From Asterochloris sp. CNOR1 (lineage: Eukaryota > Chlorophyta > Trebouxiophyceae > Trebouxiales > Trebouxiaceae): a stretch of 64,000 nucleotides of DNA. Below are positions 3,635-61,838 of the stretch, piece by piece. The stretch lies in assembly GCA_963969365.1 (NCBI GenBank), contig OZ017758.1, positions 62,001 to 126,000 on the forward strand. The letters are read 5' to 3'. Every line of letters starts with the position of its first letter. The stretch's first letter is position 1. A program made the position numbers and the translations under genes. The notes beneath the pieces are model-generated. The model worked only from the letters and a program-made list of their open reading frames with translations, did no database searches and had not been told where the DNA came from.

Positions 3635-6600
3635 ATGAAAGGCAACAGCACCATCACTGTCAGGCAGCCGCAGAATCGGGAGGATTGCCTGGCAGTGGTA
3701 ACGCTGACTGCAACCAATTTCGATGCAGAGGTTAAAGGGGCTGGCCAGACAGTGGAGCAGTATATTAGCATCGAGACTGATGAGCTGGAAGCAAATACAG
3801 AACTTTGGCCCCAGATAGGTGCGCTGAGCAAGCAAAACTTACGTGCAGCTGTGATGGCTGATCATCCAATTAGCCAAGAGAACCCATCTATGTCTGCAGG
3901 CATCGCCTTTGAGGGCAGTCAGGTGCTGGGTGCTGTTGTGCTGCGGCTGTGGGATCAGGATGAGGAGCACCTCAGCTACTGGGAGGCGAGCTCACTCTGC
4001 CGCAACAAACAGTCTGATGCTGCCAGCAGTCGGTACTGGCCACCTGCAGTGCCTCCGCTCATCAGGGCAGGCAGGCTCCAAAGTCTTGCCATACCCGATC
4101 AGCAGCTCACTCCAGCCTGCACCCAGCATGTCAGAAGGTTGCCTTTAGGGTCTAGTCCTGTGCGCCTGCTGGTGATGGCTACTCTGACGGGGCTTTCTCT
4201 CTCGATAGTCACCACCCTGCGGGCCTGCTCACAGATGTCTGCCTTGATGGTCACTGCCCTGATTGCCTGCACACAGATATCTGTCTTGATGACCCACCCT
4301 GCTTGCCTGCAAACAGATATGTCTGCGTCGCAGAGGGCCCTGCCGCCAGCAACAAGCCACTCAGATGCTCGTGTTCTTTGCCTCAAGCCTGGCAGTGCTT
4401 CAACCTGACATCTGTGCTCTGGAAGTCTGATACCCAGGAAATTGTGTCCCATGTTGCAGGCGAGGTATCACTTGAGTCCGACATGAAAGCTGTGGACGTT
4501 GGGCAGCCCAAACATCTGTCTTCTGTGCCGCAGGTGTGGCAGCGCACCAATCTCATATCGGTGCTGTGGAACTACTGCTATGACCACCTTCTCGTGGACA
4601 CCTTGGCCCCCGGGGAGTCCTTCATCGACTTCATTGCAGTCTCAGAGCACGCGCGGGGGAAGGGCTTGGGCTCACTGCTCATGCGCTGGGCGGAGCAGAC
4701 CTCTGTTGCCATCATGCTACAGCGCCTCCCTGACCAGGCAGGGCAGGACCTGTGCCGGATCTTGCTGCGGGTGAGTCAGTTGGCTCTCGAGAAAACCTAG
4801 TACAGGCAGCTGGCACCTGCTTCTGACTGTCCAGCGCTAAGGCTGGACCGGATGGCATCATCGTTATTGAACAGGTCACAGCTGGGGCTTCAACAACTGT
4901 TTCATGGAGGTCTCATTGATGATTGCTGCTCCAGCTGTGTGCAGGTTACTGCAGAGACCACAGCTGCAGTAGAGGCGGCTGAAGCTGCCTTGCCGCTGCT
5001 TGCATGCCTCATGCGTCACATGCTGTGCCTGGGCTCATGGTGCTGCCCTCCATCAATTCACTGCTGCTCAGCATAAGTGCTGACCACTGCACTGCCTCGC
5101 TCAGGGTGCTGCAGATGGTGCGGTGGCGATGCGCATGTGTGAAAAGTGCAGGTACCAGGTCTCGCCTCCAAGCTTTGAGTGCTGCTCAGCACAACACAAG
5201 TGCTGACTGCTGAGCCAGCCTGCACGCAGGTTGCTGCTGACAATGCGGTGGCGGTGCGCATGTATGAGAAGTGCGGGTATCAGGTGGTGGGGCGAACCAC
5301 AGACAGCCCTCTCCACTGGATCATGCAGGTAGGCCTAGTGCAGCTGAGTGCAAGACTTCAGCACTGGCAGTGGGCTCCCTGCACTAGGATGTGCTGTTCA
5401 CAGACAGCCCCCTGCAATGGATCGTGCAGGTAGAGCTAGTGCAGTTCAGTGCAGGACTCAATCGGTGCCTTGACTGCCCGCAGCACATTTGGAAGAGCTT
5501 CCTGGGCCACCCTGTGTGGAACATGATGGCCAAGCGCCTCCAGACCAGTGCGGGGGCAGTGGCCAACTACGCCCCAGTCATGATCCCCATAGCCGCAACG
5601 GCCACAGCCGCCATGCCGGCGGCGCCGCGGCCGTCTGGTCCGGCCGTGCCCTCCATCCCGGAAGGGAAGCAGTTCGTGAGTCAGCCACAGTCAGCTGCAG
5701 AGGAGCGTCCAGCAGTGGCAGGCACCAGGTGGGCTGCACTGCAGAGCTGTGCCCTCCTGCCTGCTGTGGGCTGCTGTAGCTAGTCACCTGGCTGATGCAG
5801 GAGCAGCACTGGCGGATGCTACAAGGGATGCTGCAGGCCTGCCCTACCACCTGCCTGCTGCGGTTGCTGCTGCACTTGCCTTCTGGCTTTGCCCTGCCAC
5901 AGCTGCCAACATCTCTGACACCCCCAAGCAACAGTCCGTTGGCTCCTGCACATGGTGCACGACGACCAGTCATGTCGTTCAGGCTGAGCAGAGATGCTGC
6001 TCGCAGTCCCTGGATGCTTGCCTAACGGGACACTTTGCCTGTTTCCTTATGCATAACGGTGATGTGCGACCCAGCGTAAAAAAAGATGAGCAAGAAAACC
6101 TGCAATGCTCGCCTGCTCATACTGCAGTGGGCATGACCCAGCTACACCCATCTCATCACGTGCAGGGGCCAGGGCCAGGCACCACGGCGGCGCCCGCGCA
6201 TGGTCTACAGCTTCACGGCAGCCTCCACTATGGCCCAGCGGCCCGGGGGGATCGTCATGGAGATGAAGGACGCCGGGGGGCAGGATTCTGAAGGGGAGGG
6301 CAGCGGAGTGCAGGAGCCTGGCGCCGCAGCCCACGCGCCGCAGCCGGCCCAGCAATCGGGCGCAGGCGCCAGTGGAGCAGCCAGGGCGGTGCAGCGGCTG
6401 CACTCCCTGTCGCGCAGCAGCGCGCCGGCGCCGTTGACCACGGTGGCTGAGATGGTTGAGCTGGATGATGACTCATCGTTTGCCAGCCTGGAGGGCGGCT
6501 CAGCCATGCTCCCCCGCCGCCGTGGTCTGCAGCGCCTGCCCAGCTTCCGGCAGCAGCAACTGCAGCCCAGATTCTCGCAGGCTGGCAGCAAGGCTACGGC

Positions 6601-6655
6601 CACGGGTGGCGGCCCCTCTCAGCGGCGCAGCCTTGCAAGAACGGCAACCATGTAG
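3635..6655 (+). CDS. GNAT-family N-acetyltransferase with Ser/Arg-rich C-terminal extension
   Basis: Five exons keep phase: 3635-3985, 4534-4770, 5230-5328, 5484-5675, 6173-6655 (TAG; 6179 is an alternative last acceptor), giving 453 aa. The GNAT fold is readable: strand [14 protein letters not shown]; motif [21 protein letters not shown] with the R-G-K-G-L-G acetyl-CoA pyrophosphate loop (about residues 155-175); motif [23 protein letters not shown]. It transfers acetyl from acetyl-CoA to an amine, but the substrate is not evident. The last 160 residues are low complexity (Ala/Gln/Ser, then [15 protein letters not shown]), with no further domain seen. The first intron appears to use a GC donor (GAG/GCGAGC), giving the continuous HLSYWE/VWQRTN. 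The introns hold broken copies of the neighbouring exons (4386-5458). Confidence 0.8.
4386..5458 (+). repeat. Degenerate copies of GNAT exon junctions inside its introns
   Basis: Three pairs are visible. 4386-4428 mimics the exon-2 start at 4531-4576 (both read W-Q-x-x-N-L-x-S-V-L-W). 5104-5162 mimics the exon-3 start at 5229-5287 (decayed MCEKCRYQV beside real MYEKCGYQV). 5396-5458 repeats the exon-3 end plus donor at 5293-5355 (ACAGACAGCCC...TGGATC..GCAGGTAG). The copies are not needed for a continuous protein. Confidence 0.75.
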
Positions 6656-7219: not shown

Positions 7220-10200
7220 TCAGAGGAGGCCACCCTCCCCATCACTCATCTCATCCACCGCTTCAGGGCTCATGCCCTCAGCAGCTGCGGCCCACTGCTC
7301 ATACAAAGCATTCAGGAAGATGCTGGTGCCCGCCGACCGGTGGGGGCTCATGTTGCGCCAGGCCTGCACGCGCCCGCCGGGCGTGACGGGCAGTGGCCCC
7401 ACTGCCAGCATCGGGCTGCCGGGGCTGTCGTGCGGCTGCTGGTCAGCATCCCTCTGGGCGGCTGCAGGGCAGTGGGGCCAGGGTCAGCCACGTTTGTCGC
7501 AAGCCCATTGCAGGCAGGCTGCTTGAGCGGGCTGTGCAGCAGTCAGCGGGCCTGGGCTCTGCATCACTCAGGGCGTGTGCCGCTCTGTTCAGCCTTGGTG
7601 CTCAGCGGCCTCTGTGCTGTTGTGATGGTGGGTGAAGAAGGGATTCACCTCTCAAAGACACTGAGCACTGGCTGTGCACACACACACACAGCTCACAAGC
7701 TCACCTGTGTAACCACAAGTCCAGCCACACTGCCCTCCTAGCTTGAGACCACACCGGCTAAGCTGCTGCCAGGTCTGCATGCCTGGACAGTGCTGCATCC
7801 CCATGTGCACAGCTTCACCTCCAGCCACACTGCTCTCTCAGCTGAGGCCTGCACAGCCTGCCCGCTGCCAGGTGTGCATGCAGCACTTGCAGCACAGCAC
7901 AAGGTGCAGATGCGCAGAATGGTGTCACCAAAGATACACCGCCATGCAGCCCACCTCTTGTTCTACATGAATGTATATGGTGCCTCACCTGCTGCCAGGT
8001 CTGCATCCAGCTTTCTCTGCACAGCACTGACGTCGAACTTCCTGCGCTTTCGGCGGTCCTCCCTGCTGTTGCCCTCAACCGATGTGGCCCCCATGGGGTT
8101 CATGTAGACACTGCTGCTGCCGCTGGAGGCAACTGTGACCGCCTCCATGTCCGATGGCTCCGCAAAACCCTCATGGCTCGCCATGATGCGCTGCGTGCCC
8201 AGGCGCATGCTGCCGCTGTGCTCTGTGCAGCACCAAGGACGAGATGTGAAGCCCAACACCTCGTTTGAACACACAGAGGACTGGGAGACATACTGAGAGC
8301 TGTTGACATCTCAGGTGGAAGGTGTGACGCTGACGCTTCTTGACACAGAGCATGCAGTGTTGACACAAATTTTGCAGGTGTCAACAAGTGATGCTGTGAA
8401 GCTTTTGGTGATGAGCCTGCACGATTTCTTCAGATAGTGACCTGTCCCAGAAGAAGGGTGCATGCTGCAGCATTCCTGATGGCAGATGTATGCGTTTGTA
8501 CAACATAACATAAGCTGTAGATGGTCCCCATCTGTAAACCAAGCTGCGTCCCCCTGCTGGCAGACGCTGTGCACACTTGACCGAAGCGCTCACACAACAC
8601 CCCCTCAAGCTGATGCTGTGTCCTGTACGCAGCTGCCATGTCTGCCTCACTCAATTACGGACATACCCGTGACATCACCCATGCGGACCCATGTGGCCCA
8701 CCTGAGAGCTGTGGCCCCTGGTACTTGTAGCCGCCCTTGATGGGGGAGCTGCGTGTGCTGCTGCCGCTCTCGGTGCTGAGCCGGCTGCTGGGGCTGTCCT
8801 GCAGCTGCGGCCCCTGCTGCAGGATCAGGACTCCATGGCGGGGGAGCTCATCCGTGGTGCGGGTGCGGGTGCGGGTCTGCCTGCGCCGCTGCAGGGGCAC
8901 AGGATATGTGGTGAGGAACTCAGTGGTGGAGCATGCGGCATGCTTTGAGGATGACACCACCTTTCTGGCTATTCCCAGTACCACAGGGATTGTGTTGAGA
9001 CAGCTGATGCATTGCCTTGACGCAATCCAGTGGTGTGGGCTTGGAAAGGTTGCGCACATCAACGCCCTCTGCCACTCTATTTTTGAAGGGAACCTGCTTG
9101 TACAGTGCCTAGCATGCAAGCAGGTGGGGGTCAATGGGAGCCAATCTTTGCATCGACTAAATTGTGGTACCGCCCCCTGCAGCAAGGACAGCATTCCACG
9201 TGTGTGGTGGCCATGCGCATTGTGCCGGCGCAAGCGACAGCAGTGGGGGGGTCCTTTGGGAAGCTGACAAGCCTGTTGAGGCAGCATGCTTGCAGATAGG
9301 GGGTTGATGGTGCGTCAAGCGTGGCTCTGACTGAACTGTGAGGGGTGGAGTGGCCAGTGCAGGCTGCACACATGCTAGGTGGGGGCTTGCTTTTGGGCCA
9401 TGCATGGCTCTGAATGAGCCATGAAGTGTAATCTGGCTGGTGGACATCGTATGCACGCATGCATCTGGGGAAGGAGGGGCTTTGCCCCGAGACAGCCACA
9501 GCCAAAGAGGCCTGCTCTAGCGTGTGTCTCTTGCTGGCAACCATGGCTGGCAGTTTGTTTTGTTTGGTAGATGGAGGTGCAACCACCTGCCCGACACACA
9601 GCGTCCCGCTTGTGAGCGGCACCACATCCGTTTCAGCAGATATGCCACAATGGCAGGGTCGTGGTGTCCATTGAGTGCATGCAATGCCGCTGTGCGTGAG
9701 CCTTGCACCCCATGCAAGGCCGTGCTGGAGCTACTCACTGAGGGGCACAGGCAGCAGAAGCACCAGAGGAAGCACAGCGTGAGGAGCGCCAGGAGGCCCA
9801 GGAGGCCCAACACAACGATGAGGACGATGATCCACGGCTGGAGGCTGGTACCGCTGCCGCTGCTCTGCAGCAGTGAAAGCATGCCTCAGTCGAGCTTGGC
9901 TCAACATGACAAGCCTGATGACCCACAGAAGCAGGCTGGGCGCTGCTGCAGTTGCTCTGCAGCAGTGAAAGTTCAATCAAGCAGGGGTGGACGCCCGGGT
10001 AGAACTGACAAGCATAATGAGCCATGGAGGCTGGCTGGGTGCTGCTGCCATTGCTCTGCAGCAGCAGCACCAAGGCAACTGAATGGCAGACATGGCAGTG
10101 AACCCAGTGCCTCATGTATACATGAGTGGGCGCCCAGCACCACGACCAAACACGATGAAGCAAGGCTTAGGCTTATTCAGTGCCATGGCAGCAGCCCAGG

Positions 10201-13200
10201 CATGGCTCTGGGCAGTGTACAGAGTATGGGCGATGCGTTGGCAGTACAGGTGGCAAGCACTACAACGAAAACAACAGTGCGAAGCACCAGTGCCTTTCCT
10301 ATCTGCATGTGAAAGCCAAGCAGGCACTTGGCTGAAAGCCACTCCAGCCTCGTGTCAACAGGCGGCAACGTGTGCAGCCCTTCAAAGCACAAAAGCAACA
10401 AAGCATGTGGATTCCCTCAAGGCAGCCTTTTCACGGTGCCAGCAGAGACCGTCATGCGCTGCAGACTGTGAGAGGCCAGCAACAACTGGCAAGCATGTGC
10501 TGTGGGCAGCCAGCTGCCAGCAGAACAGTACTTTCCTGAACACACAACAGTGCAGGACGCCGGCAGAAGTTGTCCTGCAGACTAAACAGTGCTGGATGCT
10601 GGCAAAACTTGGCGTGCATGTGCAAGCAAGTGTGAATCGACTCCCACCGAGCTCTGCGTCTGCTGGCCGCCAACGCCCAGCACTCCCAGCGGTCCCCCAG
10701 GGGCTGCGTTGGTTGTCGTCGGCGCTGGGGTGGTGAATGGCACGCTGCCAAGATCGTCGACCCCCAAGGTTCCAGGTGCGGAGCGATTGCGTGAGCCAGG
10801 AGCGCCAGGCAGGCTGGCGCCGCTGCCTGCAGGGCAGGCACACATTCTGAGTCGCAGTCTCTCTTTGTGCCCTGAGGTCGTGAAGGGAACACTGCCAAGG
10901 TCGTCCAACCCCAAGGTTTCAGGCGCTGAGACGCTGAGGGAGCTGTAAGCGCCTGAAAGGTGTGGCGGTTTCTCTGCAGATAGGTCTAGTGCGGGGCTGA
11001 GCGGCCACAGGAGCCGGGACCGCCATGTAGGCTGGCATCGCTGCCTGTAGGGTAGACTCAGACTCCTACGTGAGATGTTCCTGCTTTGAGCCAGGCACTG
11101 AGCTGAGGCTGCAGACTACTGCCCTGCATCATGGCTGGAAACACCTGAGCTGTAAGGAGCTCATTCAGGAAACTCAGTATACGCAGAAGGGCATCAGCAT
11201 GAGCCTTTACTCCCTGCGTGAACGGATGACAGAGCACGAACAAGCCCGGTCGTCTTCTTCTGCACACACTGGCGCAGTGCATGCAGGGAAGGCTCAGATT
11301 CCTGTGATGTGCGGCAGGGCTGTGCGCAGATAGGTCCAGCCTGCAAAGCTGCAGGCTATTATATTGCCAAGCTGCAGGCCATTCCTTGCCAAGCTTCAGC
11401 CCTCTGCAAGAACTGCATCGTCAGCACAATGCGAGGGCAGGCTGTGTGATTGCGGCGCGCTAAGCGCCTCCTTCATCCCTGCACCAGCCAGGCAGCGCTG
11501 TACCAAGACAGGAAGCAGCCCTGTTCCCATGGCGCTGCAGCGGCTTGCATGCAGAGACATGAGTTGCCTGGCAGGTGCAGCCCATTTCAGTGCCAAGTTG
11601 TTGCTTTCCTGTGCTGAATTCAGCACAAGCAGGCTGTGAGCAAGACTGGCCTTGCCAGCAATCAGCACATGGTGGTAGAGCACGATGATGAAGCTGCAGC
11701 TAGCCTGCAGGCTGTATGCTTCATGCTGTGTGCCTGCATGCATGCTGCAGGGTGAGACTGCAGCTTGCCTGCAGTGGCGTTTGGCGCGGGCGCCGCCGCT
11801 GCTGCTGAGCTGAGCTGCCCCTGGACCAAGCCGGGCTGGCTGCTGCCCTCCCCCTGCACTGGAGGCTGGGCTGCAGGGCCCAGCGGCAGCTCCAGCGGGG
11901 CTGAGGTGGCGCCGCCAGAAGCGCACGCCAGGAAGGTGGGGCCCGGCAGCACCACTGCAGCAGCAAACTGGCAGTGAGGGGCAGCTCAGTATTCATTTTG
12001 TCTGTCATTGCACAGGGAGGTGACAGCATGGTCTTAGGATGTAAAACAGTGCTGGGAGCAGTGTGAATGCTTTCAGAGCAGTGGTACTGGTGCAGGCTAG
12101 GTGGGGCCGGGCAGCACCACTGCAACAGGCAAGCGGCAGGTTGTGAGGGGCGGCCTGGAGCCTCCTCAGGCTCAAGCCTCCCGGTGTTGCTTGCTTGCAC
12201 CCGCCGCGGCCAGATGCAGAGCCAGTCAAAGACCATCCCTGTGCCCTGCTGGTGCGTACACTCAACAAGGAGCTCTCAGTCTATGAAGTGCTGGGAGCGT
12301 GCGCATGCTGGCTGGGCGATGGGCACGGTGCATTCAGCTCAGCTTTGCTCTCCAACTCAGCGCCCCCACTCAGGCAGCCTGCCTATGAGGCACCTGACCA
12401 CATGTAGGCATGTCAGTTGTGACGAGTGTCACGTTTGGCACCCTGGCTGCAGGGCTTCATGCCTACCTGGCGCGGCAGCATATCTGAGGCACGAGACTGC
12501 TGCATCCATCTGGGACTGCAACTGCTGCAGGAGGCCCTGGGCGCCGTCCCGCAGCAGCTGCCCTACCAGCAGCGCTGCCGCAGGGGAGGCTGCCTCCACA
12601 TACCACTGCACCAGCAGGGCGCTGCAGGCTCCCTGTGGCGGGCTGCCAGAGCTCTGCGGAGGTGCTGTGCTGGTAGTGCCGCTGACCTGCAACTCAGCAG
12701 GGTGAGACTGAGATTCTACTTCAGTTTCTTCTCTTTGGTAAAGTCAATTGTTGACCCTGTTGCCATCGGGACAGCATACTGGAACAGGGCAGCGCTCTGA
12801 TGTTGGGGCTTGCTGGTGGTGTGGTATCTTGCGGCAATGCCAGGGCCAGCAGTGCAGAGCGCTGACATACCCACGACAGCATGACAGATGCAGTGCCCCA
12901 GGCACAGTGCTTCTGGGGATGGTATTGCATGACGTTCAGGCGCTTCTTTTTGCAAAGCAGATAAATCACGCACCTGCAGCATCTTCCTGCCAAAGCCGAC
13001 CACTCTCCTCCTGGGCCTGAACAGATCGGCCAGCAATGAGTCTCCTGTGGCCTCCGCGGTGCCCCACCTCCCATCAACTGTGCTGCTTCTCAGCAGCTTG
13101 CGCCCTGCACAGGAGCACACCACACAGGGTCCATGACGGCCTGCCTGATGTAACCTACATCCACCATTCAGACCAAGATCATGAGGGAAGCAAGGCTTGC

Positions 13201-30102: not shown

Positions 30103-30300
30103 TTCCCATTTCATCATTTCTGCAGCAGCTTCAGTGCCTGACTGACCAATGCATCATGTCACACTCGTTGATATCTAGACACAACAATTTCAGAAGGCAT
30201 GAAATTCAAAAGCGGAAGCAATGCTTGTGCAGCAGTTCTTGAAAATAAACAAAATAAAGTTGGGTCTTGAGGAGTTGGGCTTGGGCAGGGCAGCAAATGG
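30103..30300. terminator. Convergent 3' region with AATAAA-like motifs
   Basis: This lies between the RGG gene stop (30102, +) and the GH5 gene stop (30301, -). Two AATAAA hexamers occur at about 30244 and 30253 on the plus strand and are candidate polyadenylation signals for the RGG gene. Green algae often use TGTAA instead, so this is tentative. Confidence 0.35.
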
Positions 30301-43807: not shown

Positions 43808-43845
<38 letters not shown>

Positions 43846-46800: not shown

Positions 46801-49800
46801 ATGATGGCGGCAATGTGGCGCGCAGGTGCTGCACCTCCGCCCTGCTGTGTTGGTGCGCGGCTTCTGCAGGCAGGCACGCCAGAGCCAGTCAGAGCAGGGA
46901 GATAGTAGCAGCAATGTGCAGCAGCAAGGCCAAAGGGTCTGCGGTCAACCTTTCGGGACCATCCTGGTGCACGAAGTCAGTCTCAAGGGCAGTGGGTCTC
47001 TGCCTGAAGATGTACGCTGTCTCGTCTATCCAATTGGTGTCTGTCATGGCTGGTGTTCTCATGCTGGGATGGAAAGCAGCAGGGGTGTTCAGAGCAACAT
47101 GAGGTGCCTTGTCAGGCACAGCAGGCTGGTGCATTGCAGGAAGATGCAATGCTCAGGCGTGACTGGAGGCCACAGTTGCACATGATATCGCACCTGCTGG
47201 GACATGGCCTGCTTCTGCTGTGTCGTCTGGCAACTCTGCAGGCTCAGCATGCTGCTGCATTGGTGCGTCTTGCCCGCTGTCAGAATGTCCAGCCTCCAGC
47301 TCCTGGAGTGAGGCCAGCAGCAGGTTGAGTAGCAGCGAGCAAGTAACAGGCTGCCTCAAGCGCTGCCCAGCTGAAGGTCAAACAGTCTGAACCATTTCAG
47401 GCAAGCCTGCGGACCAATGAGGTGACAAGCTTCCCTGAAACATGAGCAGCAGCTCTGCTTGCCACCCCCCTTCTCCCCCCCCCTGCTACAGCCAACCAGG
47501 ATGAAGTCCAGAATGGCGCTGCGTCGTCTGACACTCGCTGCACAAGAACCGTACTGAGGTCCTGCTGGCGCCCACCTGTGTTTGAGGTCTTGCGGGGCAG
47601 CTGTGGCGGGCCGTTGCTCACCAGAGCCCACAGCTGTGGGCTTGTAGGGAGAAGCTGCGCAAACCCCACCTGTATGAAGTCCAGCAGGGCGGCCTTGTCG
47701 GCCCGCTCCTCCTGAAGCTGCTGGGCCAGCTCCACATTCTCAGCCCGCAGCTGCCGCTCTTGGTCCCTGGCAGCCACGAGCTCTGAGCGCAGCTGGTGCT
47801 GCTGAGCCTCCTGCGCTGCGGCCGCCTCGCGGTCGGCCGCGCTGCTGAGCCGCACCTCTTGGCGGGCCACCCTCAGCTGCCTGCAGTGAAGGACATGGGG
47901 GAAGGTGGGCATGACAACACAATCAAGGGGCCGGGTCCTCATTCTCACCCCGCAGCTGCTGCCCCTGCTCTCTGGCAGCCACGCCTGCCTGGTGCTGCTC
48001 AGCGCGCTGACCTTGCCAGCTCGACGCCTGCTCGTTCCAGCCCCCTGCATGTCAGGCGGGTGCCAGGTCAAGCTGAACCGCCCCTGCTGGCAGCGGGGGT
48101 TGTCCATCCCAACAGGGCTGTGTGGTTTTGGGGCTGGACAACACCTGCTGCCAGCGGGGGCCTTTTGGCATGACCTGGCAGCCACCTGACATGCAGGGGC
48201 TGCCCCGCCATGCTGCCCTGCCGTGTGATCAGGGAGGACAGGATTTCAGCCCACCTTGCCAGCTCGTCACACTTCTCCGTCTTGCCCACCAGCGCCCGCC
48301 GCATGCGCGTGAGCTCCACCAGCACCTGCGCGCTGCTCATGCCGGCGCGCTGGGCCTGGTCCCCCAGCGTGGCGCGCAGGTCGCCAGCCTCAGCAGTGGC
48401 CACCTCCAGCTGGGCGCCCTGCAGGCCAAAGGTGTTCTTTCAAGGCGCCAGCATGCCGAGGGCACTTTTCTTGGGCAGAGCAGGGTATGCCAGCTGGCGT
48501 TGTGCAGCCAGACCCACCAGCCTCCCCAGCCGCCACCTGCTGCTGGGTGCCCTGAAGAACTGCCAGGCAGAGTTGTGTGGTGGGGCCTCGATAAGCGCCT
48601 GGGGCAGGCGCGGATATGTTGAGGTGGGACACCCCTGCAGTACAGCCCAGGGGCATCACTGCCAGGTTGCATGCCTCTGCAGTGGCTACCTGTAAGATAT
48701 AATGTACTGGCAGGAACATCACATATGCATGACCAATGTTACGCGACATTTTCAGAATGAGAGTGACAATGGCGGACACCTGCAGCTCTCTTCTCTGCAG
48801 GCAGAGGCGAGGACATGCCTGTCTTTAAGGCCTGGCTCATTGGTGCAGAGCATGGCATGCAACCTTGGCAGAGCTGACTCCTTTGAAGCGGCCACCTGCA
48901 GCTCAATCACTATCTGTAGGCAAAGAAGAGGACATGCCTGTGTCTTGAGGGTCCTTGACTGCGACATGAGCAACCTTTGGCAGAGGTGACTGCCCTCAGA
49001 GAAGGCCACCTTCTGCACAGGCACCAGACAGAGTTGCGCGCCAGGGCCAGGACAGCTCCTTCCTGCTGCAGCAGTTGCTGCTGCAGCACAGCCAAGGGGC
49101 ATCAGAGCCAGCTCCGCTGCCTCTGCACTGGCCACCTGAAGCCCCAAGTTCAACATCTTGGATCCCCCTGTGCCCTGGAGGTAGGGCTTACTGTGCGTCT
49201 CAGGGCAGGGACCAGGGGAGTGGCAGCCAGGGCCGTAGCCTGGCACTGCAGTGCATTGCTGTCACTGATGATACCTGTTCAGCATGAACAGGTGTACAGC
49301 GTTGTGTCTGCTGCAGCAGCCACTCCCCAACCCCCACAGCTGCACCCCACAGGCGTTGATCTGTGCGTCCTGAGCCTGGCAGTACAACGCATTCCGGTTG
49401 TGGACAGCTGTTCACAGCAGGAATGCATGAGCCTGATGCCCCGTACCTGCTACAGCAGCCGCTGCCTGACCCTCACAGATGTACCCCTCAGATGCTCTCC
49501 TGCGCATCCTGAGCATGCAGCAGATGCTTCCTGTGCCTCAGATGCCATGATTCCCTCAGCCGCCATTCCCAGATTCCTGCAGCGGCTGCGGCCTGAGGCC
49601 TGCGCAGTCGTCCTTCCGCTGAACAGCCCCAGGTTGCAGTGCACCCCCGCTGCTGCCAGCACTGCGGATCTCACCCGCAAGAGCACCGTTCTGGACACGA
49701 TCCCTGCCACTCCTGTGCCTGTCGCAGCTGCCGCATCAGCCGTAGCTTCACCCCAGAGCCATTGGTCTGTGTCGGGCCTTGCCCCGTCACTGCTGCTCTG

Positions 49801-50686
49801 TCATGGGCTGTTCGCAGCACGCAGCTTCAGGAGGAGTTTGCTGGCCGCCCTGCCACTACTCTGACCTTCAACCACTCTTCTGCGGCACCCTGCCCCTGAC
49901 CTGCCTGCAGGTAATCTGAAAGCAGATGCAGGAGCACTGACCTGCTGCTCCTGCATCGCCTGGACCTCCAGCAGCTGCTGCCTGAGACCAGAGCACTCGT
50001 CCTCCAGCTGCAGAGCCCTCAGCTGCGCTGCGCCCCCGCTGCTCCGCGCGAAGCGGATCTCCAGCTTGCTGCAGCGCTGCTCGGCTGCCGACTGGGCTGC
50101 CTGAGCCTCTGCAAGCCGGACCGTCAGCTTCTGAGACTTCACTGTAGCCCCCTCAGCCTCCTGCAGAAAGACAGGCACCTGTGTGTACCCACCCAATGTA
50201 ATCAAGAAATGAGAAGCTACCCAGCTGCTCACGCCACGTGCTATACCCAAGTCCAGACAGAGGGGCATCTCTGTAGACCAGGCTGCATGGCACACATCCA
50301 GGCAGAGGGCACCCATCAAAACCCACAATGCTGCCGCTCCCAACGACCTCCTGCTGAGGAGCAGTCCTAGGGGCTCCTTGGCAGCGACTGATTGCACAGC
50401 AGCTTTGCTCAAAATTAGCTCACCTTCTGAGCATGCGCCAGTGCTGCCCGCAGCTGGCGATTCACGGCTGCAAGCTCCAGAGTGTGCGCCTCAGCATCCA
50501 GAGCCCACTTCTCCAGCTGCACACACACCCACATGTGCTTGCTGACATGTGCTGCATTCATGCCAGATGCAGTCATGTCTCAGAAACCCTGACCTTATTC
50601 ATCTGATGTTCCGCATGGCTGTCCGCCTTATGCTGTCTGGCTGCCTGTGCTATCAAATGGGCTGGCATGCCATTCATCGCAGGCAT
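42676..50686 (-). CDS. Coiled-coil protein, unknown function
   Basis: Twelve exons in phase, read leftward: 50686-50594, 50516-50424, 50160-49942, 48418-48255, 47880-47670, 47350-47194, 46661-46366, 45901-45715, 44664-44468, 44254-44144, 43669-43258, 42842-42676. The 2307 nt encode 768 aa starting MPAMNGMPAH. Most exons are heptad-rich: LEKWALDAEAHTLELAAVNRQL, AEQRCSKLEIRFAR, LRAENVELAQQLQEERADK, LVATLQAQLQQLQQAML, RLAEAQRE. There is no motor, kinase or membrane segment. The C-terminal 190 residues are Ser/Gln-rich and disordered, then a final short coil LQQQLSDLQQSYKQMRAKW and Ser/Arg tail. A cytoskeletal or basal-body scaffold would be typical for this build, but nothing specific supports it. 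Its introns hold the youngest junction duplications of the window. Confidence 0.78.
43813..43841 (+). repeat. (TG)n microsatellite
   Basis: About 14 TG dinucleotides in an intron of the coiled-coil gene. Confidence 0.9.
44630..44930 (-). repeat. Five-copy 62-63 bp array of the exon-9 acceptor (125-bp higher order)
   Basis: GGCTGAGCAG recurs at 44641, 44704, 44766, 44829 and 44891, spacing 63, 62, 63, 62. Copies alternate between two types (GGAGACCCACGCG and CAGATCCATGTG), so the basic duplicated unit is about 125 bp made of two older halves. The copy at 44641 belongs to the real exon (start 44664, ERVGLLLSQQAA). The others repeat acceptor and first codons; one has an in-frame TAG. Confidence 0.9.
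46615..46913 (-). repeat. Three-copy 101-bp tandem repeat spanning the exon-7 acceptor
   Basis: CAGGTGCTGC recurs at 46621, 46722 and 46823, exactly 101 bp apart, with few differences between units. Each unit holds the minus-strand acceptor CCTGCAG (CAG at 46664-46662, 46765-46763, 46866-46864) and the first codons EAAHQHSRAEVQHLRA. Only the leftmost copy leads into the rest of the exon. Confidence 0.92.
47485..47520 (-). repeat. Copy of the exon-5 end
   Basis: GGATGAAGTCCAGAATGGCGCTGCG resembles the true exon end TGTATGAAGTCCAGCAGGGCGGCC at 47670-47693 (plus-strand reading). The donor is lost. Confidence 0.55.
48660..49145 (-). repeat. Four decayed copies of the exon-4 start
   Basis: Real exon 4 (start 48418) reads LEVATAEAGDLRATL. 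Minus-strand copies near 48694, 48897, 49012 and 49134 read VATAEACNLAVMPL, VAASKESALPRLHA, VAFSEGSHLCQRL and VASAEAAELALMPL, each after an AG. Two share long flanks (GGACATGCCTGT..TT), showing later rounds of duplication. Confidence 0.7.
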
Positions 50687-51625: not shown

Positions 51626-51756
51626 CTTACTCTCTGCTCGGGCTCCTCCTCGGGGGTCTGACCCCTTTGAATTAAAGGGGCTACTGCAAAATTCCGGATC
51701 CTGAATTTACGAAAGGTGCTCTTCAGTGGCATGCGTATCGCCGCCTTCAGTGGGCA

Positions 51757-54711: not shown

Positions 54712-57700
54712 TCATACCACCAAGCATGCCCTCTGCTCAGGAGCCAGCATGACAGTGCAAGTGGACTGGCCAAGCTTCCTGAGCCTCCCAGTGACCCACA
54801 TGGCCAACAAAGGGCCAAAGCCAACATTAGAACTTCCACCTAACATCGGCAGAAGAATGCAGCTCAAGCATACCCTGATGACATTGGTGTCCTGGAACCA
54901 GCCCCCCCTGCTGCAACACATCCACAGCGCAATCCCACTCACTCTGATGACCTCATTGTCACGGAACCAGTCGTCCCTGTTTTGGGTGCTGTCAGCCGGC
55001 GCCACCCGGAAACGTGAGATCAGGGAGGCCAACACCGCCCGCGCCTCAACAATGGCCACCTGCTGCCCCACGCAGTTCCTGCAGGGGCCCACAGTCTGTC
55101 AGCTGAATGGGGCTGACCCAAACACTTGGGGTTGCCCCTCTAGACTTCATCAAATGGGACTGCCACCTCTGATGGGCTGCAAGAGTTTAGGCGACAACAC
55201 CAGATGGTACTGGGTAGAGACTGTAGCATTTGGCTAATTGGCGCTGTATTGTCACACAGGCTCGTGCTGGATCCACTCCAGAGTGCTCAGCGCACCTTTG
55301 GCCTAAGCTGAAGGGAGCCCAGCTGGTGCTGAGACTCTGCTTGTTGCCTGCTGGGGTTGCATTGAGGAATCCTGCAGCCAGAGGAGGTTGAGCAGATTAG
55401 GCCAGTGCCAAAACGCCACAGGCTACAGGTTACAACCACAAAGCAGGCCAAGCATACTGGCTCAAGGATAGACTTCCCCTCAGATTGAGAGGCTGCTGAG
55501 CAGGACTGAACGGTGCGGAAGACTGCAGAGCTGCAAGCAGCAGGAAGCAGTCACTGCACAGCCACTTCCAAAGGTACCTTCATATGTGTCAGCAACTTGG
55601 AAGAAGGTGGCACGAGATACTTCAGATGCATCATGCCTGTGGGCTCACGTGGGTCAGCTGACGCATCGCAAGGCGTAGCCTCAAAGCGCTGGCCAGAAGT
55701 CCTCAGCCCGAGTGTAGTTGTAAGGGCCATGATGCAGCAGGTACGCTGAGAAGATGAGGGGCGTCCCCTTGGGCAGCCTGTAGCCGCCCACCACCATGTC
55801 ACGGTCCAGCTGTCTGCAAAGCACATTTCCAGACATCGCAGCCTATTTCAAGCACGGTACATGGACCTGCATCTGCGCTCTGCGTCCTTGAGCACATTTA
55901 TCCTGTGTCCTGCAAGAAACACAAACTTCAACAGCCGCACACTAGCTCAAGCATGCTGGCAGCGCCTGCTGCTGCTCTCTCAACGGAACAGAAACCTACT
56001 TGAGGGAAGACAAAGCAACCATGGCAAAGCAATTGGCGCTGCAGCCCAGTCTAAACACATGGGTTGGAGCTGTGGACCCATGAACGGGATCTGGCAAGAA
56101 GCCTGGCATTTGTCAAGCAGGCCCACATACACCCTGTGGGTGATGCAAATGGGTGGCTGACAATTCATCTTGTACATCGCTCCTCATTCAGCCTGATCCA
56201 CACAACCTGATGTGGGCTGGGTCATGTGCAAGCCACTGGAACAGGCCTACATGGCTCACATATACATGGCCTATGCCTGTAGGACTGCCTTCAAACAGAC
56301 CCACACCTGTTCTCAGGCTGCACTTTCGTGATTGGCTTCAAGAGTAGAGATGCCGACTGTACTGGTGTGACATTTCTCGCACCTGGACACCATGGGAATG
56401 GTGGGGTGCAGGCGCATAGCCTCCTTGAGGCAGGCGCATAGGAAGGTGAGCTTGCTCAGGTCGGCATACTGCAGAGCTCGAGGCTTGGGGCGCTCAGGTG
56501 TCACCAGCAGTCCCGCGGCGTCAAGCTCAGCCTCCAACTTGTCCTGCAGGCACACACCAATTGATTGCAATCAGCTCACATGCCACAGAAGTCCTCTGTC
56601 ATGTCGGGCGCAGCCTCCAGTTTGACCTTCAGGCCCATAGCGCGTCAAAAAGCTGCTGTTGCTGGTTCAAGACTTTGCTGCTAGAAAGAAGCAGGCCTGG
56701 CAGCATTGGGGTTAGGAGCAGTGTCTTGGCTTGACCTACAGCTCATTCTGCGGGCAGGCAGGAGCAGAGGGCCAAAGGCCAAGCTTGTCCATAATGGCAT
56801 CCTTAAGCTTAAAGCCTGGAGGTGGCAGCATCAGATCTCACCAGCAGTCCTGCTGCATGAACTGCAGGGTTCAGTTGTCCTTGCAGACACACAACAGTAT
56901 TGGACAGGCAGCGCAGCAGCAGCGCAGGTGGTGTAAGCAGCCTCTGAGTCCAGCCAGTGCTGCAGGTGGGCGTTGATCATGAAAGCAGCTATAACTGCAT
57001 TCCAGGTCTGGCCACAATGATCTATGCCTGGTAATGTACAGGTGCACTGCTCAGGAGGTGCTGAGGAGGCTGTATCGCACTGCCCAGAAGATGCTGAGGA
57101 GGCTGTGCTGTGCTGCTGCTGCCCCAATAAAAGCTTTTTGAGACATCCCTGTGATCGCACCTGTTGTGGTCCTGCTGCAATACTCCTTGAGCTCTGTGAT
57201 TACCTTGGTTTTCTTCTTGAGAGGATTAGCAGGCCACTGAGGCTGCTGCCAGGGTGGCCTGCCTGGCTTACCTGCACGACGTCGCCTGCTCTAGAGAAGC
57301 CCTAAAAGGGGCTGGCCATGACACTGCAGCTGCGTGTGGCTTGCCTGCACATCAGGATGCGTGGCCAGCTCCAGGAGGGCAAATGAGATGGTGTGAGAGG
57401 TAGTCTCAAACCCGGCGCCAAACACCAGGTTCAGGTTGGCCAGCAGGTCGCCGTCATTCATGGGCCCACCTGCAGACCACAGAGCACACAGTATTGCAGG
57501 TAGCAAAGCAGCTGTCCATCGACATGATGCATGCTATTCCAAGGCATGCGTGTATCAGAATGAGCCACTGGGACTGCCTTGTTAATATGTGAATGCTTTG
57601 AGGCGGCCGCATGTGCATGATGTGGCCACCCACACCTGTCAGATAGAAAGTGTACCGCCTGAATGCCCCGGCAGAGCACTGCCAGCAGCTGCACAGCATC

Positions 57701-60700
57701 AGGCATCCACTCTCATGGAGTGTGTGCAGAGCAGTCTGACTTATGCAGAAGGGCATCAGCCTGAGCACAGGGCGCTCTGCAGGTACAGAACTCTTCGAAG
57801 ACATTCGAAACATCAAAATGGAGATAAGCAGCCCGTACACTGCATTTCACACATGAAGTAGTGTGCATACATGGGTGTCTCCGCCACACGCAAGCCTGAC
57901 ATGCCCTGCAGAACAGTCTGGGCATGGCATCACCCGTCTGCAGACAAGTTGCATGATGAAGATGGGTGCAGAATGAGGCGCCCTTACATACCAAGTTAAG
58001 CCTCATGCCACAACACTCTGCCACCTTCACATCGAAGAGAGACTCACTGCTGACGTGCAGCAGCCTTCCAAGCAGCGTGGCAATGCAGGTTGCCTTGCAG
58101 CAGGCCCTCACCTGTCCTGTAGTCCTGCAAGCGGGAGGCACACGCCCACACCTGCGTGTTCTCCTGCGGCTGTGGCCCATTCCCTTTCACGATGCTCAGC
58201 ATCTGGACGTCTCTCTGCAGCAGCCAATGTCATGGTGCCATTGTGATGCCTTGGGTGCGGAGGTCACAAACCGGTTCTCACTGTATGTGCGCTGCTTCAG
58301 GGAATGCTGAGGTGGCGCATGAAGACACAACAAGCAATTGGGCTGCTGTCACAGTTGGGCTGCTGTTGCAAAACATCCAGGGCAGACTGTGGTTGCAATG
58401 CTGCAGCCCCAGGTCCAGCCTGGTCCTCTCAACGGTGTTTCAGCAAGGCAGCTGACGACCAGAGTCACTGCTCAGCTGGAAGACTGCTGTGTTGGGTGCA
58501 CATGCTGCCCCTGTTCATGACAGTGAGTCCTCCGAAACATGTCCCCTTCTGCTTGCTCATCAGCCACTCAGGTATGCCGCAGCAGGAGATCTAAAGAGCC
58601 CAGCCCACAAGACACCAAGCCGGGTCATGCTCTGCTCAGGGTGTTGCAATCACCCACATGCGCCATGGACAAAGCAACTGAGGGCTTGCATGCATGATTC
58701 ACTCAAATAGCAGCGCATATGCTTGATGGCAGCTGAATGTGCCGTCACGGAGGAATGAGGAGCAATCAACCATAGCAGACCCACCTCTGTCATGCCCTGC
58801 AGGCTCGTATCTCACAGCATGGGCACCACAGCAAGTCGCACTGGCTTGCCCGCCTACCCAGGCCTGCCGCTTTCATGCTTTGTACACTTGCATGAAATAA
58901 GTTAGAAAGATGAGGAGCTTTCGTCACTCACCCTGCTCATGCCCTGTGTGGTCGCTTGTCATGCAGCTTGGGCAGGAAGGGCAGCACGGCTGTCAGGAGC
59001 GAGTTCCAGGGGGAGATGATGCGCTGGGACATGCTTTCCATCGAATGCTTCATGTCCTGCAAGGGCCAGCCACAGCTTTGTGTTGCTCCGGGAACCGCAT
59101 GAAGATGATGCGGTGGGACAAGTTCTGCATGGTGTGCTTCATGTCCCGCAAGGAAGGATTCACTTGCCATGTTGTCCCAGGCACCACAAGGGGATGCTGC
59201 GCTGGTAAACAATCTGCATTGCACTTCATGTCTTGCAAGGGGCAGGCTCCTGTTTGTGTTGCTCCAGCCATCTATAAATAATGCAAGGTGACACTTTTGG
59301 TATCCATGCAGCCAGACTGGCTTGCCCGCCCAACTCAATAGGCCTGATCCTCACCTGGGCGGCTGTTTTTCCCATTCAGGAAACATCTGAAGGTGCGGCT
59401 TGATGAACCTGGCACCCTGGTTTCTTTGCACCTAGCACCCAGCACTGCAGCTCTGGCTTGCGGTGCCAAGAGGCAGCCAGGCAGACCCGTCTAAGTGGAG
59501 GCTGCATTTCCTCCATATCTTCAGGCTGTGCAGAGACACAGCCAAGCAGATCTGTCTGAGCAGAGGTTGCAGGAGCGCCTCATCCTCAGGTAGGGGCTCT
59601 CCTTCCAAGCCCAGCTGCCATCCAGGTTCTGCTCCAGCAGCAGGGCATCGAAGGTGCATTTGAAAGTGGCCTCAGAGATGACGTCTGCACAGGGGAGCAG
59701 GTGAAGTCAGCCAGTCTGTTTTGTGTTCATTCTGGACAAAACCCTGGTGGCCTCATTGCAAAGGCGCGGCCAGCTGTAAACCTGCTGAGCGGGGAGGAGC
59801 ATACTGCTGCTGAGCCGGGAGGAGCCTTCCAAGCCTGCTGAGTGGGGAGGAGCCTTTGAGCCTGCTGCTGCTGAGCAGGGAGGGCCTGCTGCTGCTGAGG
59901 GGGAGGAGCCTGCTGCTGCTGAGTGGGGAGGAGCCTGCTGCTGCAAGCAGGAAGGAGCAAATGGCTGCTTGGCTCGAACACACTTTCAGCATGTTACATG
60001 CACAGGTACCCAGATCTAATGTCAAGACAGGTCATGCGATGCAATCCCAACAGGCTGTGTGCATGCACCACGCAGCGGCCTGACGTGCCGCAAGTGAGGC
60101 GCTGCATGGCCATGATCTGGACGCGAGGCTGGTCCAGCACATCTGATGCAGAGCCTGGAGGCTGCCCTAATTCAGCACACAGGAACTGCTGCAGCGACCT
60201 CACCTGCAGTGAGGCGCTGCATGGCCTCTGCCACATTGAGCACTCCTCCAACGGCCACCTTCTGCATGCCCTCTGTCGAAGCTTCCACATGAAGGGCCAC
60301 ATCTGCAAGGTAACAAAAACTCGTTGGACATGAGGTCGGAGGTCACTGTTTTGGGCGGAATGCTACCACGCTACAGCAAGGTGTGTCAGGCAAGATGCAT
60401 GCATATGTGTCTATGGCCAGTCAGGTGATGTGCAATGCAGCTGACGCACAAGCTCAGGTGTGGCAGCCAGCCATTCCATGGAGTGTGCTACCTGCTGCTG
60501 CCCTGTGCATGACCTCGTTAGCGACTTAGGCACTGCTACCCGTTTTGTAGAGGCAAGGGTATCAGACTGCATTGGGCACTGCCCAAGGGCACTGCCATGC
60601 CAGCAGGTGCAGCAGGGCTGGCAGGTGACCCCGGCTTAGGTACATGCACCTGCAGGCTGGTCGACGACATATCTGCACACGTACCTTTCTGATCGCCTCA

Positions 60701-61838
60701 GGGCTGAAGGCAACATTGACAGTCTTCCTGCAGAGCAAATTGCTGCAGGTAAAGGCTGAGCTGCCGAGCAGTGTCTGTACCCATAGACAGGGCCAATCTA
60801 GTTGAACAGGCAATACACATGCCCTTAGGTGATGTATCACTTAGGATTGCGCCAGCTCTGGTCGCAGCAGGCACCATTAAGATGACACAGCCGCAGCACA
60901 CGACTACCTCCGGGCAGAGCCCAGCAAACGCTGCCAGGGAGATGCCCCCAGAAAAAAAAGCAGAGAAAGGGCCAGGCCTGGCTTGCCCTAACAGGCAATG
61001 GCAAGTGGCTTGCTCACAGGCCAGACAGGCCTTGGCAGGTGCATGGCAAGCAGGTGGTCCCAACCTGATGTGGCGCCACTCCTCTGCGTCTGGGGTGCTG
61101 ACAATAAAATAATGTTGGGGAGCTGAGGGCTCGAGGCCCTGCACAGGATGAGCGCACGCTTAGGACTGGCCATGCTGTCCCCTCTGCTATGCTTGTGGAA
61201 ACATGTAAAACCATGTGGCCAGGGACAATGGACTGGAACTGGGTGGGGGTGAGGCTGAGAAGAGGACATGACAAGCGCTTGCCTTGTACAGTAAGCCCCA
61301 CTTGTTGAAAGCACCACTGGCTGCTAGCAGCTTCTGCCACTCTGCTGGATCTGAAATGACCACAGCCTCATGGAGACCAAATCGCACACAGAAAATGGGT
61401 CCAAATTGGCCTGCCCAGCTGAGAAACAACTTGTGCCTTTGCAGGCCAGCTCCTGCAAAGGCTTCGATGAGCTGTTAGACGTGGCAGCGCTGTCTCAGGC
61501 TGCATGGATGCAGACTTCATGAGGGGGCCTATACAGTCCGCTTAGCAGGTTGTTTATTCATGAAGGAGGCCTGAATCAAGACGTTCTGAGTCAGCCCAAT
61601 GTGTCCAAGCTAGAACCCACCTGCCAGATCCAATAGGTTGCCCAGCACAGGCAGCGCCTTGGGTCCTGCATGCACCAACTGGCACAAGATCGGCATCTGG
61701 TATGTTTCACCCTGGCGTGCACATAAGTGTACCTGGCATGCTGTGCAAGTCATAGCAGCGTTTTTTGGTCTGCCTGCGTAGCCAAAGACCACCAACAACG
61801 ACTGCCAGAATGTAGGCTATGAATCGGCAGATCTCCAT
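54712..61838 (-). CDS. Cytochrome P450 (with possible disabling lesions)
   Basis: Exons, read leftward: 61838-61733, 61665-61621, 61452-61283, 61138-61065, 60727-60685, 60302-60204, 59684 to about 59588, 59056-58943, 58214-58112, 57469-57345, 56543-56383, 55813-55649, 55371-55296, 55078-54943, 54765-54712. P450 hallmarks in order: N-terminal anchor FIAYILAVVVGGLWL; GPKALPVLGNLLDLAG; EEWRHIR (C helix W-x-x-x-R); I helix GAGFETTSHT; KEAMRLHPTIP (E-x-x-R); FWP of the PERF motif; heme loop PFSLGQRNCVGQQVA with the cysteine ligand. It is a heme mono-oxygenase, probably ER-anchored; family and substrate cannot be named. Problems: the joins 60685 to 60302 and 59588 to 59056 do not match phase; the exon at 59056 meets a TGA unless a GC donor at 58942 is used; and FWP/RF at about 55686-55692 needs a 2-nt shift. 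Divergent from TLC copy 2. Confidence 0.7.
54868..54985 (-). repeat. Copy of a P450 exon end
   Basis: The real exon (55078-54943) ends DDWFRDNEVIR at its donor. About 80 nt downstream on the minus strand, GGWFQDTNVIRV is encoded by a diverged copy (54870-54905) with a different donor context. Confidence 0.65.
59045..59250 (-). repeat. Three copies of the P450 exon-8 acceptor
   Basis: CTTCATGTCCTGCAAGGG (59049), CTTCATGTCCCGCAAGG (about 59138) and CTTCATGTCTTGCAAGGGG (about 59224) are spaced about 85-90 nt. Only the first continues into coding sequence; the second has lost the acceptor AG context on the minus strand (TTGCGGG). Confidence 0.7.
59781..59958 (+). repeat. GCTGCTGAG(C/T)GGGGAGGAGCC minisatellite
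   Basis: Seven to eight irregular units built on CTGCTGAGNNGGGAGGAGCC lie in a P450 intron. Unit length varies from about 21 to 36 nt. Confidence 0.85.
60070..60236 (-). repeat. Copy of the P450 exon-6 end
   Basis: AGTGAGGCGCTGCATGGCCATG (60088) duplicates AGTGAGGCGCTGCATGGCCTCTG (about 60209), the exon-6 end next to its donor. The copy keeps the exon part and loses the GTGAGG donor. Confidence 0.65.

Follow-up and report, generated by a model that had tools for sequence, protein, structure and literature searches.

Some Asterochloris introns hold copies of their own exon edges, probably left by short local tandem duplications

Duplication has been used to explain intron sequence in several settings. 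Introners are recognised by sequence that is common to unrelated introns; the intron sequence described here, from the lichen-forming green alga Asterochloris, is likewise explained by duplication, but its units are not common to unrelated introns. In the Rogers model, a new intron is born from tandem duplication of an exon segment that holds AGGT; there too the duplication lies within genes and the message is restored by splicing, whereas in Asterochloris it is an existing intron that grows. A tandem duplication over an intron-exon boundary is described for a potato RdRp gene, where the 3′ end of an intron and the start of the next exon were duplicated, the splice signals came from the parental junction, the mRNA took in the upstream copy and a cryptic donor gave rise to a new intron (PMC4974935). 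In Asterochloris, by contrast, the copy is left within the old intron wherever homology tells.

Other described systems can be compared with these duplications. Small tandem duplications in rice are ascribed to patch repair of adjacent nicks; like ours they are tandem, enriched at 50-200 bp with fewer above 125 bp, and general across the genome, but they are recent insertions between genomes (PMC7971508), whereas we see old and young copies in one genome, placed relative to splice junctions. CST-Pol alpha-primase offers a molecular route to small tandem duplications at breaks, although in mammalian cells (PMC8355091). Finally, direct repeats around splice sites have been reported near intron borders, but these are 4-30 bp long, lie at both intron ends and are read as insertion footprints (PMC11782384); in Asterochloris it is one border that aligns within the intron, over 33-250 nt.

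We analysed a stretch of 64 kb from Asterochloris sp. CNOR1 (the window) together with 26 loci picked blind from 18 large contigs of the same genome, giving 27 loci and 324 kb, with the organelle-like stretches L019 and L020 left out of counts. Gene models are our own predictions, from a gene finder run with length penalties, and are wrong in at least three places (acceptor 5429, the donor at residue 294 of a transporter and the donor at residue 43 of RUVBL2). One predicted protein is identical to JGI Astpho2/9967 over 435 aa.

The first or last 60 nt of each exon was compared with its own adjoining intron, a score of at least 30 counting as a match; 382 of 486 introns were usable (introns of 80 nt or more whose two exon edges each measure 40 nt or more), 64 of them in the window and 318 in the blind loci. 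Within the window, 12/64 introns have acceptor-side and 3/64 donor-side matches (0.1 and 0.1 in shuffled introns), one of the twelve, at acceptor 5429, being contradicted by homologues. The blind loci behave in the same way: the start of the exon is found again in the preceding intron in 22/318 cases, against 0.4 for shuffled introns, and its end in the following intron in 17/318, against 0.2. The initial annotation had proposed that introns hold copies of their own exon edges, and had named comparison with shuffled introns as one check; the excess is clear, the proposal is not refuted, and the copies are real and extend beyond the window. In all, 52 introns carry copies, and such introns are present in 18 of the 27 loci, which shows the lineage-wide mechanism first suggested within this one genome only. 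Similarity peaks in the 30 nt adjoining the junction (24/382 and 14/382 in these bins) and is about 1% or less past 60 nt. Introns and exon edges are both GC-rich, and the splice consensus is strong and shared, such that chance similarity, compositional bias or low complexity might be thought to produce these matches. We give this next to no credence: over all 27 loci, 34/382 acceptor and 20/382 donor matches compare with 0.65 and 0.3 in the introns of other genes and with 1 and 1 for inverted edges, shuffled introns yield almost nothing, and, save for the exon’s first and last bases, the 60-nt edges contain no consensus positions.

Self-comparison of the window at E<=0.01 returns 40 similar pairs, of which 35 are direct and 63-446 nt apart, five are direct and separated by more than 3 kb, and none is inverted. 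Defining a near pair by at least 38 bits and a separation of 30-600 nt, a scan in which repeats with a period below about 50 nt are undetectable, we find 37 near pairs in 26 distinct regions of the window and 102 in the whole set, none of which was taken out by low-complexity and under-30-nt filters. Such regions are denser in the window than elsewhere in the set (26/74 regions in 64/324 kb, p=0.002). An exon is involved in 14 of its 26 regions (ten on the acceptor side, three on the donor side and one touching two predicted exons), so that, counted as distinct regions at this threshold, there are 14 junction cases and not the ‘more than twenty’ first put forward. The genes first listed as carrying them are partly borne out, with cases in the RGG-type and coiled-coil genes, weak copies in the GNAT and P450 genes, and none in the GH5 gene, whose region (30301-41520) holds the start of none of the 102 near pairs. 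Positions are collected in the table below; the acceptor at 4534 of the GNAT gene agrees with a Trebouxia homologue, and the start of exon 5230-5328 is backed by homologues.

Near pairs and exon-edge copies in the window (positions within the 64-kb stretch)
Feature	Positions	Strand	Details
Copy 928-996 of 1045-1113, predicted acceptor and opening part of exon 1056-1273	928..1113	+	period 117; copy keeps AG; 79.7% over 69 nt, 62.6 bits
Weak copy (~4390-4432) of start of exon 4534-4770, GNAT gene	4390..4580	+	period ~147; AG lost; score 31
Copy 5062-5160 of acceptor and start of exon 5230-5328 (5180-5285)	5062..5285	+	period 118 (125 in exon-edge alignment); copy keeps AG; 76.4% over 106 nt
Intron 5329-5483 (155 nt), donor-side copy at 101 nt: exon end and donor 5298-5357 again at 5399-5458	5298..5483	+	85% over 60 nt
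Intronic copies of acceptor-side part of exon 10648-10826	10722..11055	-	10722-10783/10869-10930 period 147, 59.0 bits; 10793-10837/11011-11055 period 218, 46.4 bits
Copy 18709-18752 of acceptor and start of exon 18830-19045, RGG-type gene	18709..18867	+	period 114; 84.4% over 45 nt
Copy 23401-23472 of donor-side part of exon 23075-23317	23219..23472	+	period 182; 77.2% over 79 nt; alignment ends 20 nt before donor
220-nt duplication over acceptor of exon 24078-24328	23670..24109	+	70.7% over 222 nt, 96.9 bits
Copy of stretch over small predicted exon 28549-28588, model uncertain	28504..28664	+	period 95; 77.6% over 67 nt
Array of 63/126-nt units over acceptor of exon 44468-44664, coiled-coil gene	44621..44939	-	TRF 4.8 units of 63 nt over 44621-44919; 91.6% over 191 nt
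Three 101-nt units over acceptor of exon 46384-46661, coiled-coil gene	46616..46918	-	96% over 202 nt; genome-wide match to own array only
Intronic copy of interior stretch of exon 47576-47880	47723..47983	-	period 205; 83.9% over 56 nt
Copy of acceptor and start of exon 48186-48418	48384..48557	-	period 133; 80.5% over 41 nt, 39.2 bits
Copy 49576-49672 of donor-side part of exon 49942-50160	49576..50061	-	period 389; 75.3% over 97 nt; alignment ends 23 nt before donor
Weak copy of acceptor-side part of exon 56383-56543, P450 gene (56494-56559/56831-56896)	56494..56896	-	period 337; 74.6% over 67 nt, 38.3 bits
Tandem duplication entirely intronic, without junction, probably same process	9826..10064	.	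period 91; 72.3% over 148 nt
Tandem duplications outside predicted genes, probably same process	59782..59958	.	83.8% over 74 nt; classed intergenic, though gene prediction may have missed exons

The geometry of these pairs is that of short tandem duplication. Across the whole set 102 near pairs are direct and one is inverted, and 61/102 periods fall at 50-150 nt, about the 60-130 nt first suggested, although 33/102 exceed 200 nt, some of these being multiples within arrays; in both head-to-tail orientation and size they resemble the rice duplications. The rice study cites Vaughn and Bennetzen 2014 and Schiml 2016. Gapped alignments span 0.9-2x the period in eight arrays picked for clarity. The median aligned length of near pairs is 60 nt and most older pairs align over part of the period, so that tandem geometry is directly visible only in the younger arrays. 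The full range, from near-identical arrays (46616-46918; 44621-44919) to decayed copies without AG or GT, is seen as initially described.

Two other sources of intron sequence can be set against these data. Insertion of introners or other mobile elements, for which nothing was found in favour, we consider to have a negligible chance of being correct, and reject: 101/102 units have no match elsewhere in the 324 kb, and the two units searched genome-wide match their own array only, among the matches listed (these counts being lower bounds). The distinction from introners drawn at the outset therefore holds, in that the units are private to their place. Birth of new introns by the Rogers route has one apparent candidate, a model intron at 5329-5429 whose flanks are repeated at exactly its own length and are 0.725 identical, where the control maximum over 431 introns is 0.46; it is alone among these introns in having a period equal to intron length and both splice sites in the repeat. 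Homologues disprove it: they put the acceptor at 5483/5484, such that the modelled acceptor is wrong and the repeat is a donor-side copy within an existing intron. The second best of the 431 (7327-7701 at locus L007, 0.456) depends on a donor that homologues contradict. With its two best candidates failed, this route appears a very poor account of what we see, though weaker or old cases may exist.

What becomes of the copies can be followed in a set in which only the edge in question was required, giving 56 matches (34 acceptor, 22 donor). Copy periods are spread over the three frames (17/19/20 modulo 3). Differences fall at 85/470, 73/468 and 107/457 of the three codon positions (0.18, 0.16 and 0.23), a slight unevenness (p=0.008) that silent-site change in the exon itself would produce. 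Identity between copy and original is 78% in the exonic part and 57% in the intronic flank, and by these measures the copies appear to drift like non-coding DNA. Nevertheless, 19 of the 34 acceptor copies still score like real acceptors, and the suggestion that they form decoy splice sites is borne out at that level. That one junction stays in use, also proposed at the outset, is indicated by protein homology, which backs the used junction in 18 of the 25 matches examined, contradicts our own model in two and leaves five undecided.

We also considered whether the copies might be normal or alternative exons, included in mRNA by tandem exon duplication. Five pairs match exon to exon and may be true exon duplications; in one, at locus L011, an entire predicted exon is duplicated over 400 nt. 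Moreover, for the transporter at L007 the JGI ab initio model counts the copy as coding sequence. Against this, the even spread of periods over frames and the mild third-position bias of the differences lead us to reject regular coding exons as a general explanation, homology leaves no room for copies in RPN11, RUVBL2, mitochondrial Hsp70, an ABCD transporter and an acyl-CoA synthetase, and homologues of the L007 transporter in Trebouxia, Myrmecia and Coccomyxa are without the extra copy. We thus hold exon inclusion to be quite improbable overall; the L007 transporter may nonetheless be a parallel to potato RdRp.

Whether junctions are special is a separate matter. Duplication might be aimed at them, for example by transcription- or splicing-linked breaks, such that junction copies arise more often, and the raw counts lean that way: in 60/102 near pairs one of the two copies falls on an exon, where rotated annotation predicts 35.4+-5.0 (0/300 as high), and distinct regions divide into 28 acceptor and 15 donor against 17 intron-interior, above the expected 0.30 and 0.29 to 1. 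The excess persists after a two-fold visibility correction for junction copies (43/60 against 54%, p=0.006), and the exon-overlapping share is no lower among pairs of at least 85% identity (12/20). When exons are masked, however, 34 regions remain, eight at junctions, 19 intron-interior and seven intergenic, and the ratio of 8 to 19 is at or below the 0.56-0.66 to 1 of uniform placement (p=0.33-0.55). Acceptor cases outnumber donor cases in the window by 12 to 3 (p=0.035) but not significantly in the blind loci (22 to 17, p=0.52), and a general acceptor bias is rejected. A spread without preference fits the masked counts, of only 34 regions, while unmasked counts exceed it even after the two-fold correction. 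Since masked exons give uniform placement, exon conservation is a likelier cause of the junction excess than targeting, which we regard as unlikely; the most likely cause is slower decay of the exonic copy, with conservation of the exon keeping old copies recognisable. The implication that there is anything special about junctions is accordingly not upheld.

Synthesising these findings, we consider it highly probable that short tandem duplications, some of which cross junctions, leave an extra copy that survives as spliced-out intron, and the original proposal, in which local duplication spans a junction and its copy ends up in the intron, is to that extent supported. Head-to-tail duplications, mostly of about 50-150 nt and observed as direct, near and private repeats, would arise across the nuclear genome, probably when staggered or paired breaks are filled in and repaired by end joining, a source already described in rice and mammalian cells and suggested here by size and geometry. 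Those within exons would mostly be purged by selection (5 exon-exon pairs, where 14.4 are expected), and those in introns and intergenic DNA would persist. A unit that falls across a splice junction would give the gene two acceptors (or donors), each with its adjoining exon edge; the spliceosome would stay with the one contiguous with the remainder of the exon, as homology suggests, so that the other would come to lie inside a longer intron, decaying as non-coding DNA whilst often still resembling a splice site. Because selection preserves the copy in the exon, old events would stay readable at exon edges after deeper intronic ones have faded, a reading consistent with the masked-exon control.

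Some practical cautions follow. In genomes of this kind, ab initio gene prediction can settle on decoy sites, a doubt illustrated by the JGI model of the L007 transporter and by three of our own junctions, and in similar scans junction-crossing repeats will look over-represented because exons are conserved.

Detected near repeats make up 4.7% of intron bases, and tandem duplication is plausible as a main route of intron growth. We also speculate, with a good deal of doubt, that splicing shelters a steady supply of 50-150-nt duplications which, because copied acceptors and edges still look real, would be the chief origin of latent alternative acceptors as well as of new intron DNA, that exon edges keep a datable record of them, and that an occasional copy becomes a mini-exon together with a small new intron, the L007 transporter perhaps being an example. 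Intron lengthening is less studied than intron appearance; the exon edge provides a fixed reference for recognising and counting old tandem duplications, and new intron DNA from this source thereby becomes measurable in a single reference genome.

Exons and introns were predicted by a small gene finder trained on the sequence itself, for the window (G000:C13:62001-126000, in an assembly of 56.38 Mb and 21 contigs) and, since the initial annotation's own choice of examples was to be avoided, for a blind sample of 26 nuclear 10-kb stretches at round coordinates, with at least one from each of the 18 large contigs. Over these 324 kb the models comprise 57 genes, 543 exons (median 133 nt) and 486 introns (median 319 nt), with strong splice-site motifs near CAG/GTGAG (donor) and CTGCAG/G (acceptor) emerging from training; the published Asterochloris glomerata genome is reported to average 9 introns per gene (PMC6652019). 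The predicted long-chain acyl-CoA synthetase of sampled stretch L002 is identical to eukprot:jgi/Astpho2/9967/Aster-06780 over all 435 aa.

Every exon edge (60 nt) was compared by alignment with the intron that it borders, a score of at least 30 counting as a match. The 382 usable introns (at least 80 nt, both exon edges at least 40 nt) gave 34 acceptor-side and 20 donor-side matches, against 0.65 and 0.3 in other genes' introns and 1 and 1 with inverted edges. The blind loci alone gave 22/318 and 17/318, where dinucleotide shuffling of the introns left 0.4 and 0.2 and the same gene's other introns gave 0.66 and 0.22; the window alone gave 12/64 and 3/64. The initial annotation's claim that introns carry copies of their own splice junctions is thus borne out, with the excess over shuffled introns that it proposed to look for present in both the window and the blind loci. 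Its GH5 example falls away, as 30301-41520 holds no near repeats at the threshold used; the window gene labels GH5, RGG, P450 and coiled-coil are presumptive and in part those of the initial annotation.

Similarity peaks in the 30 exon nucleotides adjoining the junction (24/382 acceptor-side and 14/382 donor-side bins at a score of at least 28) and drops to roughly 1% or below past 60 nt, the profile to be expected if units of about 100 nt straddle the junction. A copy is detectable in 52/486 introns (13/78 in the window, 39/408 in the sample; introns below 80 nt could not score), spread over 18/27 loci, and copy-bearing introns have a median length of 474.5 nt versus 313 nt for other introns of at least 80 nt. 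Of 183,299 intron bases, 8,692 (4.7%) fall within detected near repeats; this is a minimum, since copies become unrecognisable with age. Tandem duplications are about twice as dense in the window as in the sampled loci (26 of 74 regions, p=0.002); the window occupies kilobases 62-126 of contig C13, so an effect of position on duplication density is possible.

Near pairs (at least 38 bits, within 600 nt) number 102 direct and 1 inverted over the 324 kb, with 7 direct and 1 inverted at 600-3000 nt; the window compared with itself yielded 35 near direct, 5 far direct and 0 inverted pairs. The period has a median of 128 nt and lies at 50-150 nt in 61/102 near direct pairs. In eight arrays chosen for display the gapped alignment spans 0.9 to 2 times the period, so that these are head-to-tail (in 44621-44936 visibly so only with gaps), while the median aligned length is 60 nt, most older pairs aligning over only part of the period. 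As 101/102 units have no match elsewhere in the 324 kb, and two units searched genome-wide match only their own array (match counts being lower bounds), we reject introners as the source and regard the units as local duplications; the initial annotation had named this mechanism about right, and had rightly set it apart from introners. Its proposal that such duplication is a lineage-wide mode of intron growth may hold; the counts given here cover one genome.

Duplication looks as if it were targeted at splice junctions. One copy lies on an exon in 60/102 pairs, against 35.4+-5.0 expected when the annotation is rotated (0/300 rotations), with intron-intron pairs (24 vs 35.7) and exon-exon pairs (5 vs 14.4) below expectation; among the 60 pairs, 41 are acceptor-side and 17 donor-side. 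Distinct regions number 28 acceptor, 15 donor, 17 intron-interior and 7 intergenic (uniform placement, 0.30:0.29:1:0.37), with a further 5 exon-exon and 2 at gene ends. Were junction copies to stay visible only twice as long, 43/60 would still exceed the 54% expected (p=0.006), and the exon-overlapping share is unchanged among pairs of at least 85% identity (12/20). However, when exons are masked the excess is gone: of the 34 regions then left, 8 are at junctions, 19 inside introns and 7 intergenic, and a junction-to-interior ratio of 8:19 is, on small numbers, compatible with the 0.56-0.66:1 of uniform placement (p=0.33-0.55). Selection on the exonic copy probably keeps junction events recognisable for longer, and the data do not establish a special role for junctions. 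The window shows an acceptor excess (12 vs 3, p=0.035); the blind sample (22 vs 17, p=0.52), the combined set (34 vs 20, p=0.076) and the regions (28 vs 15, p=0.066) show no significant one.

Protein homology was used to ask which junction is in use for 25/56 exon-edge matches, those in nine genes; homologues support the modelled junction in 18/25, contradict it in 2/25 and do neither in 5/25 (see table). In the transporter of L007, at 3845-9466 (G000:C7:503845-509466), the JGI fgenesh model Astpho2/9030 holds both copies, DFSRVLALAF... and DFPRVVTLAF...; the additional copy is 19 residues long and equals the duplicated exon edge. All four aligned homologues, including Trebouxia, Myrmecia and Coccomyxa, have a single copy, and the extra 19 residues may be an annotation error or a recruited, species-specific ‘mini-exon’.

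Junctions compared with homologues, and other features of the window and sampled stretches
Feature	Position	Observation	Basis
Acyl-CoA synthetase		3 junctions supported	protein homology
RPN11		2 junctions supported	protein homology
RUVBL2		3 supported, one with modelled donor 24 nt too early	protein homology
Mitochondrial Hsp70		1 supported	protein homology
ABCD transporter		2 supported	protein homology
RTF1		1 supported	protein homology
VPS41		1 supported	one distant chain, 7zu0_F
Amino-acid transporter	L007	2 supported	protein homology
GNAT gene		3 supported, one on acceptor side only	protein homology
Contradicted model junctions	acceptor at window 5429; donor at transporter residue 294	contradicted	homologues
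Other junctions	Hsp70 residue 395; RTF1 62 and 200; VPS41 410; first window gene residue 89	neither supported nor contradicted	
Tandem GH5-like stretches	window 30301-41520, minus strand	two similar stretches, predicted within one fused model	
Duplication of about 400 nt	L011 6184-6987	holds a whole predicted exon, 81% identical, as two consecutive model exons; possibly a true exon duplication	
Clustered exon-edge stretches	L016 1787-2145	four related; one used as 81-nt exon in model	
Long open frames	L001 2039-5488, L012 1-1612 (minus-strand coordinates)	resemble LINE-type endonuclease and reverse transcriptase	motifs
Uninterrupted open frame	L013 3225-5714	830 aa; locus GC lower (0.523)	

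In the first model, the flanks of intron 5329-5429 repeat at exactly the intron length (identity 0.725 vs a control maximum of 0.46), the best of 431 introns, and this first looked like intron birth by tandem duplication. Of the residues that this model predicts there, 18 are absent from the Trebouxia, Myrmecia and Parachlorella homologues, which place the acceptor at 5483/5484 and so rule birth out: the corrected intron starting at 5329 is 155 nt long, 101 nt of it donor-side copy, and has therefore grown rather than arisen.

Across the 56 matches, identity is 78% in exonic parts and 57% in intronic flanks, and the period modulo 3 is distributed 17/19/20. Copy and exon differ at 85/470, 73/468 and 107/457 sites by codon position in acceptor-side matches. 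Third positions are slightly over-represented (p=0.008), as would be expected where a coding exon is set against a non-coding copy and less so where both copies code. AG is retained at the aligned site in 23/34 acceptor copies and GT in 10/22 donor copies. The decoy splice sites of the initial annotation stand at the level of sequence: 19/34 acceptor and 7/22 donor copies score at least as well as the weakest 5% of real sites, a level reached at 4.6% and 7% of random intron positions, and 5/34 and 3/22 outscore the site in use.

Separately, L019 (G000:C20:20001-30000), an organelle-like stretch kept out of the counts, has many dispersed repeats, both direct and inverted. With its GC of 0.41, these repeats and a length for C20 of 110,056 bp, close to the mitochondrial genome of about 110.9 kb reported for A. 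glomerata (PMC6652019), C20 is probably the mitochondrial genome.

Tandem duplication as a source of intron gain is an established idea (PMC3443670; PMC2809761); a duplication across an acceptor is described as having created a new intron in a potato gene (PMC4974935), and in human and mouse cells 3'-overhang break ends reportedly give small tandem duplications via CST-Pol alpha-primase and end joining (PMC8355091). Among the literature matches listed, which mostly leave out subscription papers, none describes exon-edge copies in introns as a genome-wide feature; this is weak evidence of novelty. Exon-edge copies are a real feature, spread over this genome, and can be explained by short tandem duplication of an ordinary kind, which splicing shelters and which conservation of the exon probably keeps visible.
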